Shown here one piece after another: positions 15,607 to 57,861 of a stretch of DNA of 62,186 bases. The first letter of the stretch is position 1. Each line of letters begins with the position of its first letter. The stretch comes from Phycicoccus sp. Soil748 (GTDB lineage: Bacteria > Actinomycetota > Actinomycetes > Actinomycetales > Dermatophilaceae): the NCBI RefSeq assembly GCF_001428025.1, contig NZ_LMSC01000007.1, positions 1 to 62,186 of the forward strand, written 5' to 3'. Under the pieces are notes generated by a model that was given only the letters and a program-made list of their open reading frames with translations, ran no database searches and was not told the DNA's origin. The translations under genes were made by a program, and so were the position numbers.

Positions 15607-15638
15607 GATTTGGTCGGGTCCCACGCAGGCGGTATCTT
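15607..15638 (+). promoter_or_regulatory. rpsL promoter
   Basis: GATTTGG starts at 15607 and gives a -35 TTGGTC (15610-15615). A 17-nt spacer leads to -10 TATCTT (15633-15638). GATTTSG recurs at the same distance in the rpsJ, infA and rplM promoters. Confidence 0.7.
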
Positions 15639-15644
15639 TGAACA

Positions 15645-15887
15645 CTGTGTCTGAGGGCCAACCCTCGGGCATGCCCGCTGGAGCCGCCGCCGATCAGGCA
15701 GCCGGGCCAGCACACCTCTCGCCGGGCAACCCACGACCGATCCGCATGGATGGCGCGTGGGGAGTGCAGGGGAGAGCGCCGAGCGCGACACACCCGAGTG
15801 CGGGGGTCGGGCGGAGCGGCAACACCAAGGAGTGCCAGGGGGCGTCAGCCCCAGGGTGCAGAACATCAACTACGTACGGAGAACAGG
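15645..15887 (+). promoter_or_regulatory. rpsL mRNA leader with shared r-protein element
   Basis: About 240 nt lie between the predicted start point and rpsL. Positions 15785-15810 hold GCGACACACCCGA, two bases, then GCGGGGGTCGG; the rpsJ leader has the same element with only those two bases changed. A 5-bp GGGGC/GCCCC hairpin with GTCA loop (15839-15852) lies shortly before the ribosome site GGAG (15878-15881). The arrangement suggests autogenous control by a ribosomal protein, by analogy with known leaders. No gene is convincing in this stretch. Confidence 0.55.
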
Positions 15888-16262
15888 TTGCCTACGATCA
15901 ACCAGCTTGTGCGCAAGGGGCGCCAGGACAAGGTCACCAAGACCAAGACTCCTGCCCTCAAGGGCTCGCCCCAGCGCCGTGGCGTGTGCACGCGTGTGTA
16001 CACCACCACCCCCAAGAAGCCGAACTCTGCCCTGCGCAAGGTCGCCCGTGTGCGCCTCACCAGCGGCATCGAGGTCACGGCCTACATCCCGGGCGTCGGC
16101 CACAACCTGCAGGAGCACTCGATCGTGCTCGTGCGTGGCGGTCGTGTGAAGGACCTCCCCGGCGTGCGCTACAAGATCGTGCGCGGCTCGCTCGACACCC
16201 AGGGTGTCAAGAACCGCAAGCAGGCCCGCTCCCGTTACGGCGCGAAGATGGAGAAGAAGTAA
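15888..16262 (+). CDS. rpsL: 30S ribosomal protein S12
   Basis: The product is 124 aa from TTG 15888 (Leu-Pro-Thr-Ile-Asn-Gln-Leu-Val-Arg), six bases after GGAG; the start is fixed by the universal S12 N-terminus. S12 sits at the decoding centre. Lys43 in Thr-Pro-Lys-Lys-Pro-Asn-Ser and Lys88 in Gly-Gly-Arg-Val-Lys-Asp are the sensitive forms at the two classic streptomycin-resistance sites. The stop overlaps the rpsG ATG by one base. Confidence 0.98.
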
Positions 16263-25096: not shown

Positions 25097-25129
25097 GATT
25101 TGGTAGGTCGCGGGGGCCTCTGGCACACT
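25097..25129 (+). promoter_or_regulatory. rpsJ (S10 operon) promoter
   Basis: GATTTGG starts at 25097, giving -35 TTGGTA (25100-25105). After 18 nt comes -10 CACACT (25124-25129). The -10 is poor, but the GATTTGG block and its 27-nt distance to the -10 match the rpsL, infA and rplM promoters. Confidence 0.65.
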
Positions 25130-25135
25130 GGACCG

Positions 25136-25398
25136 GTTGCTTGACGCGCGCCGTTGACCCATGTCGACGCCGCCACCCCCGGTGACACACCTCGAACCGA
25201 GCCACCTGAGCTCGGGGCGACACTCCAGGGAAGCGCAAGCCCCGGCCTTGCCGGACTGAACCGACCCGTACGACCACTGCGTGAGAGCGCATGTCGTCGG
25301 GCCGCGGAGCGGGTGCGACACACCCGACCGCGGGGGTCGGAGAAGCCCACAGGGTCGGCCACAAGCTAGATGTTCGGCGAGAGAGAGACGTAACGGAG
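25136..25398 (+). promoter_or_regulatory. S10 operon mRNA leader with shared r-protein element
   Basis: About 260 nt are untranslated. Positions 25315-25340 carry GCGACACACCCGA, CC, GCGGGGGTCGG, 24/26 identical to the rpsL leader. Here CCGACC and GGTCGG can pair around GCGGG, and GGGTG (25311-25315) can pair with CACCC (25321-25325), so two mutually exclusive folds are possible. This is consistent with feedback control of the operon, but the regulator is unknown. Confidence 0.55.
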
Positions 25399-25707
25399 AT
25401 GGCGGGACAGAAGATCCGCATCCGCTTGAAGTCGTATGACCACGAGGTCATCGACAACTCGGCGCGCAAGATTGTCGACACGGTGACCCGTGCTGGCGCG
25501 ACGGTGGTCGGCCCCGTGCCGCTGCCCACGGAGAAGAACGTCTTCGTGGTCATCCGTTCGCCCCACAAGTACAAGGACAGCCGCGAGCACTTCGAGATGC
25601 GCACCCACAAGCGCTTGATCGACATCATCGACCCGACGCCGAAGGCCGTCGACTCGCTGATGCGCCTCGACCTGCCGGCTGACGTCAACATCGAGATCAA
25701 GCTCTGA
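25399..25707 (+). CDS. rpsJ: 30S ribosomal protein S10
   Basis: The product is 102 aa from ATG 25399 ([11 protein letters not shown]). S10 is part of the 30S head and also, as NusE, a transcription antitermination factor. Arg-Ser-Pro-His-Lys and [11 protein letters not shown] are conserved. It is the first gene of an 11-gene unit running to rpsQ. The purine-rich GAGAGAGACGTAACGGAG before the ATG is an imperfect ribosome site. Confidence 0.98.
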
Positions 25708-57769: not shown

Positions 57770-57861
57770 CTGTTGTGCCGTGCGCCCTCGCAAGGCGACA
57801 CACCAGCGCCTCGGGCGCCCACGGCACACCGTTCCTTCCCAGCAAGCAAAGGGCCAGTACA
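57770..57861 (+). promoter_or_regulatory. rplM mRNA leader
   Basis: This leader of about 90 nt contains GCGACACACC (57795-57804), the first ten bases of the rpsL/rpsJ leader element, followed here by a different hairpin, GCGCC-TCG-GGCGC (57806-57818). GTGCCGTG near the start can also pair with CACGGCAC at 57811-57827. Confidence 0.5.

Follow-up and report, generated by a model that had tools for sequence, protein, structure and literature searches.

The window analysed here, a stretch of 62,186 nucleotides from Phycicoccus sp. Soil748 (contig NZ_LMSC01000007.1, positions 1-62,186), raises the question of why the leaders of two ribosomal operons, rpsL (str) and rpsJ (S10), contain almost the same word, what reads it, and whether the rplM leader belongs with them. 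The initial annotation attributed the repeat to one RNA element and one regulator common to all three operons. The rpsL/rpsJ pair of 26 nt, at 15785-15810 and 25315-25340, was confirmed with 24 of 26 positions identical. In 1000 dinucleotide shuffles of the two leaders, the best 26-mer identity never exceeded 21 (mean 17.2, against 24 observed); the similarity is therefore beyond chance. In both leaders the copy follows a promoter-like sequence and precedes the start codon. The rpsL element lies ~142 nt past its predicted promoter, assuming a start 6 nt beyond the -10, and the rpsJ element is at about +180 relative to its own. The repeated element is a 25-bp block, CGACACRCCCGANNKCGKGGGTCGG (Table 1).

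Other features were observed in these leaders. All three operons have a GATTTGG promoter element (15607, 25097 and 57732), with a -10-like hexamer about 19-20 bp on; the element also precedes rpsJ in relatives and could mark a type of promoter that r-protein genes have in common. A second GACACACC occurs in the rpsJ leader at 25182-25191; it precedes the block by 133 nt and is not conserved, the relatives compared having GTGCCACACC at that place. Upstream of the rpsL block, at 15715-15785, we found CTCTCGCCGGGCA ... GGAAGTGCAGGGGAGAG, which is common to several rpsL leaders of the family and also present where the rpsL leader lost the block; it is a separate candidate leader structure.

Table 1. 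Coordinates of the elements, promoter-like sequences and genes in the window.
Feature	Position	Strand	Basis
25-bp element before rpsL (str operon)	15786-15810	+	Covariance-model match (E 9.5e-9), conservation, placement
Putative WhiA core GACACACC of the rpsL element	15787-15794	+	
Candidate auxiliary part of the rpsL element	15795-15810	+	
25-bp element before rpsJ (S10 operon)	25316-25340	+	Covariance-model match (E 2.0e-9), conservation, Streptomyces venezuelae ChIP-seq
Putative WhiA core GACACACC of the rpsJ element	25317-25324	+	
Candidate auxiliary part of the rpsJ element	25325-25340	+	
rpsL promoter-like sequence, GATTTGG ... TATCTT	15607-15638	+	By sequence
rpsJ promoter-like sequence, GATTTGG ... 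CACACT	25097-25129	+	By sequence
rpsL (S12), TTG start	15888-16262	+	
rpsJ (S10), ATG start	25399-25707	+	
rplM-leader 10-mer GCGACACACC, most likely a fortuitous resemblance outside the system	57795-57804	+	

Among 58 related genomes searched, rpsJ was found in 55 and 30 loci were obtained; the block, CGACACRCCCGASCKCGKGGGTCGG, was near-invariant in all 30, with the flanks diverging on both sides. Across orders, 54 of 58 rpsJ leaders (the window included, and five that had been picked for a prior pattern match) departed from the 25-nt consensus at no more than one position. The rpsL leaders had at most two mismatches in 30 of 42 cases, and the other 12 were without the block (more than two mismatches). 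Seventeen block positions (0-5, 7-11, 15, 16, 18-20 and 23) were at least 90% fixed in both sets, and positions 6, 12, 13, 14 and 17 were variable, without evident covariation. A covariance model (R1) of 56 copies carried a structure shifted by one column, which makes one of its six pairs impossible, and is thus essentially a sequence profile. In this genome it detected two strong places, those of Table 1, and the next match had E 0.47, all of these E-values being rough. The model matched 219 of 246 class genomes at E ≤ 0.01, so that conservation in other actinobacterial leaders, which the initial annotation had set as a test of its proposal, turned out to be wide within the class.

The matches were placed almost exclusively in front of the same two genes. 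Among 118 model-match loci, 53 preceded rpsJ and 63 preceded rpsL (115 distinct places), none was reversed, and two weak matches (L223, L227) preceded neither; these loci comprised the 29 best-scoring class matches, 29 from 16 hand-picked genomes, mostly selected for extra or weak matches, and 60 hand-picked for variety from the class matches listed. Among the exact-pattern matches listed for named genomes, 117 of 118 stretches had the block directly upstream of rpsJ (78) or rpsL (39) in the same orientation, and in one it was 33 bases from the stretch end; the record titles of such stretches were actinobacterial in 80 of 80, also among the matches listed. We further collected, at up to three mismatches, 202 distinct copies with rpsJ or rpsL context; 191 of them had no mismatch to a 20-nt pattern containing the core, and the distance from the element to the start codon ranged from 53 to 409 nt. 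In Streptomyces narbonensis, for instance, the block begins 86 nt ahead of rpsJ, counted to its start codon, and in S. zaomyceticus 75 nt ahead of rpsL. Elsewhere in the scanned loci, 69 words had 0-3 mismatches; one, near a contig end (L156), was exact, and the rest were imperfect, many of them EF-G codons. In fusA genes (e.g. L049:2800), the codons for DTPGHVDF yield the similar word CGACACSCCCGGSCACGT, by which motif scans of the str operon may be misled. We also noted CGACACGCCCGGGTTGC in front of a gene that resembles, by eye, an ABC-F ribosome-associated ATPase (L326, G341:C1:630505).

The block opens with C-GACACRCC-CG, and its core GACACRCC (GACACACC in both window copies) fits exactly the published WhiA consensus GAYACRCY. 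A near-invariant 3′ part follows the core and is a candidate clade-specific auxiliary motif. We assign a probability of about 0.8 to the reading of the repeated element as a DNA site of WhiA. The genome has whiA (TIGR00647, above the cut-off, E 1.0e-108), and the encoded protein matches the PDB WhiA chains 8dy9_I (E 6.6e-156) and 8dy7_I (E 8.5e-156). The frames beside whiA are presumably YvcK, RapZ and UvrC, which they resemble by eye. We found whiA in 31 of 33 class genomes searched, the two without it being 70% and 82% complete, and in 4 of 8 genomes outside the class. GAYACRCY was absent upstream of rpsJ in all eight genomes outside the class (450 nt searched; 140 and 238 nt in two genomes), the four with whiA, which are Actinomycetota, included. 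In consequence, the presence of whiA alone does not predict the box outside the class.

WhiA was reported to bind GAYACRCY ahead of the rpsJ operon (Fisunov et al., 2024; PMC11701221); according to these authors, the core is found in the majority of whiA-keeping species, and a clade-specific auxiliary motif lies downstream of it; the Actinobacteria are among the groups named there as having the rpsJ operon. In Mycoplasma gallisepticum, the HTH domain of WhiA reads the core and the HEN domain reads the auxiliary motif; WhiA binds and represses the rpsJ operon, the repression is relieved at high ATP, and the elongation block by WhiA is very weak. In most Mollicutes, transcription starts roughly 22-40 nt upstream of the site (PMC11701221). 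According to Bush et al. (2013; PMC3781837), rpsJ is a WhiA ChIP-seq target in S. venezuelae, 75 bp from the start codon, and S10 (rpsJ) expression is lower in the whiA mutant. A peak at 75 bp would fall inside the block as it is placed in S. narbonensis. The WhiA sites described for S. venezuelae share only GACAC, MEME gave no flanking consensus, and their orientation is not fixed (PMC3781837). Several points count against WhiA in our case, among them the rpsL copies with an altered core described below, the 12 rpsL leaders without the block, the non-class genomes that have whiA but not the core, the fixed orientation of the leader copies, as opposed to the mixed orientation in the Streptomyces work, and the location of the site so far downstream of the promoter, which is unusual. 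We must also note that rpsL is absent as a WhiA target from the main texts of PMC3781837 and PMC11701221.

The rplM leader most likely does not share this site. Its 10-mer GCGACACACC, which had led the initial annotation to count rplM as a third member, is present, but it stands without the rest of the block and its frequency is at chance level: allowing one mismatch, the window contains 12 occurrences where 14.1 would be expected, and in 37 of 300 shuffling trials a word of at least 10 bases was common to a shuffled leader and the shuffled rplM leader. In 170 nt upstream of rplM, 11 genus leaders (the window's included) had the 10-mer in three cases, GAYACRCY in three and GACAC in seven; in 19 leaders outside the genus the counts were 0, 0 and 3. 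We therefore rejected rplM as part of the 25-bp system, the 10-mer being chance-level and poorly kept and the remaining block not shared. The rplM leader may contain a weak WhiA site (GACAC), judging by this word. The two arms of a separate inverted repeat enclose the 10-mer. This repeat, GTGCCGTGCGCCC ... GGGCGCACGCGGCAT at 57775-57850, is the rplM leader's own and a candidate L13 leader; the outer stem of the rplM leader, with eight predicted pairs, is kept in most of 18 aligned leaders (taken from 30). The 25-bp element is thus confined to two operons. From the proposal of one element and one regulator for three operons, the common rpsL/rpsJ element stands and its regulator is likely common, but rplM drops out; the str and S10 operons most likely have one regulator in common.

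The block also occurs in IMG/VR phage contigs, where it stands alone as a GC-rich word within sequence of 35-41% GC. Seven phage stretches match the 25-mer exactly, none of them near rpsJ or rpsL, and 17 (16 contigs; L475-L491) match a relaxed form. By a crude ORF call, both neighbouring genes run opposite to the block in 7 of the 17 stretches, from two phage groups; among the other ten, the arrangement is mixed or one-sided, or the block overlaps a small frame. On the core side of the block, a TTGACA-N17-TAANAT promoter lies 13 nt away in 5 of the 17 stretches, and a CRP-like TGTGA-N6-YCACA box lies 12-13 nt away in 8; no such box is near any of the 202 leader copies. The independent phage cases are fewer, since many contigs are near-copies (L476/L478/L481; L482/L484/L486/L487/L490; L483/L489). 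In the group with the sigma70-like promoter, a GP88-family gene adjoins the block (Pfam, L482; the same PHROG in L484 and L486). It is possible that the phage blocks represent capture of a host regulator. A further record, L492 (MT839730.1), is a 4-kb unverified human faecal "Bacteriophage sp." entry with, by eye, a bacterial-looking rpsL leader and the block, and it is probably mislabelled bacterial DNA.

What is conserved in the block bears on whether it is read in RNA or in DNA. Neither of two hairpin structures (one with an impossible pair) had a single pair changed on both sides among 56 sequences, and no fixed-register flanking stem was found across all column pairs of 187 non-redundant copies. 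As far as these alignments indicate, it is the sequence that is conserved and not base pairing. Complementary arms flank some rpsL copies by eye, in a register that is not shared. The comparison with Rfam, which the initial annotation had suggested, gave no match in the window at gathering scores; a permissive search of the rpsL and rpsJ leaders returned nothing in one leader and only one weak, unrelated match in the other. That match, to the SAH riboswitch on the opposite strand, scored 12.9 bits where the cut-off is 37, and was rejected. We also rejected rRNA mimicry: judged by eye on rRNA stretches that were partly gapped and contained N, the best 16S/23S matches looked like what short GC-rich words would give anyway. 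An element of the 5′ leader RNA, through which an r-protein or another RNA-binding protein would co-regulate both operons after transcription starts, would nevertheless explain why the leader copies are all sense-oriented, and a recognisable promoter lies upstream of the block in 47 of 108 rpsJ copies, with the element at a median position of +175. The same promoter pattern was found upstream of only 1 of 94 rpsL copies; it is narrow, and misses the window's own rpsL promoter. A second promoter downstream of the element was rejected on this narrow pattern, which occurs between the element and the start codon in 1 of 202 copies. An RNA element is, however, hard to reconcile with the wide range of distances to the start codon, with the phage copies antisense to both neighbours, and with the genomes of groups g193 and g194. 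All seven of these have lost the full block before rpsJ; instead, one or two copies of CGACACGCC(CG), with the core, directly adjoin or overlap a predicted -35 box that was recognised by eye (e.g. TTTGCG-N19-CACAAT). Two f4 genomes with CGACACGCCCGGATT before rpsJ, in which the 3′ half is absent, were left out of this promoter-case count. Given the WhiA motif inside the block, the core at the -35, the antisense phage copies and the lack of compensatory changes, the r-protein-bound RNA of the initial annotation is probably wrong, and we consider any leader RNA element improbable.

A WhiA site could also be only half of the story. WhiA might take only the GACACRCC core, with the 3′ part serving as the site of a second DNA-binding partner (WhiB, for instance, or an unknown factor) in a composite element. 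This would fit the S. venezuelae sites, which MEME found to be without flanking consensus (PMC3781837), yet ten further positions are at least 90% fixed here in both sets. The two parts can also be separated: the g193/g194 and f4 genomes retain the 5′ part without the 3′ part, and rpsL copies of group f93 retain the 3′ part with an altered core. The box is missing before rpsJ in all four f93 genomes and present before rpsL, where one copy has the standard CGACAC and three read CAACACRCCCGACCKCGTGGGTCGG (CAACACRCC) with the 3′ part intact (L340-L342). The variant changes the first base of the GACAC core (to AACAC), so that GAYACRCY is broken in three of the four rpsL copies; in f93, either WhiA tolerates or follows the core change, or the 3′ part has its own reader. 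One rpsL leader of family f1 (L093) has CAACCC at its best match. The auxiliary motif is, however, read in Mycoplasma by the HEN domain of WhiA itself (PMC11701221), and we regard a second partner as unlikely, though worth keeping in mind. The constant spacing of the two parts is no evidence either way, because ungapped patterns would miss spacing variants. Coding could be imagined as the cause, through a short leader peptide under conservation or a mere accident of codon constraint, since EF-G codons make a look-alike, but every frame has some fixed third positions alongside variable first or second positions, and one frame would need the rare CGA at two fixed codons. The leader peptide was rejected on this codon-position variation, and we give the coding explanation practically no weight.

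With WhiA as the preferred reader, its binding to the block inside both leaders would adjust str and S10 transcription together. From the near-identical sequence, we infer that WhiA also binds the rpsL copy. The HTH domain would read GACACRCC, and the following CGANNKCGKGGGTCGG would probably be read by the HEN domain, the 3′ part being, we infer, the HEN (auxiliary) contact. In this genome the predicted promoter precedes the site by some 140-180 bp, and the site would be transcribed as part of the leader. Its strict orientation and its place past the promoter would fit a WhiA that meets the elongating polymerase or acts at short range on the promoter. The Streptomyces data point to activation of rpsJ (PMC3781837) and the Mycoplasma data to repression (PMC11701221); by analogy, activation, as in Streptomyces, appears a little likelier here.

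WhiA is known mainly as a regulator of sporulation in Streptomyces, where about 15,000 GACAC words exist, only a small subset is bound, and further determinants are reportedly lacking (PMC4850268). A near-invariant 25-bp site, almost confined to two ribosomal operons, is a candidate for such a missing determinant, and suggests that the widespread role of WhiA is the control of ribosome synthesis; the RNA regulator proposed initially would become a protein-DNA interaction. We put forward more tentatively, at somewhat less than even odds, that the WhiA sites of Actinomycetes began with the str and S10 boxes and are strongest there, that WhiA first of all couples these two main ribosomal-protein operons, that its full code is the 25-bp block and not GACAC, and that phages of these bacteria keep the block beside promoters of their own in order to tap the circuit or titrate it. 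The rpsJ WhiA site is already in print (PMC11701221, PMC3781837). The rpsL site and the 25-bp form were not found in the main texts of the literature searched; rpsL may be listed in Table S1 of Bush et al., and the longer motif may appear in the logo that Fisunov et al. give for Actinobacteria. Neither rpsL nor fusA was found in the main text of PMC11701221. The phage copies were not met in print, in a literature search that was not directed at phages.

In its location, the block resembles the r-protein leaders compiled by Eckert and Weinberg (2020; PMC7247131), which are likewise conserved elements in the 5′ leaders of r-protein operons; unlike it, those are structured RNAs with covariation, and no actinobacterial rpsJ or rpsL leader is among the entries compared from their Table 1. 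The rpsJ motif RLC-47-1 (PMC11109978) also occupies an rpsJ 5′ UTR, but is a structured RNA from three Peptostreptococcaceae genera. With the sites of Bush et al. (PMC3781837), the block shares the GACAC core and rpsJ as a target, whereas their consensus is 5 bp in mixed orientation and ours is 25 bp in a single orientation. The closest parallel in arrangement is that described by Fisunov et al. (PMC11701221): a GAYACRCY core before the rpsJ operon, an auxiliary motif directly downstream and, in Mollicutes, a site downstream of the transcription start, as it is here relative to the predicted promoter. In contrast to that description, the actinobacterial form is a GC-rich block of 25 bp, lies far downstream of the predicted promoter, and has a second copy before rpsL.
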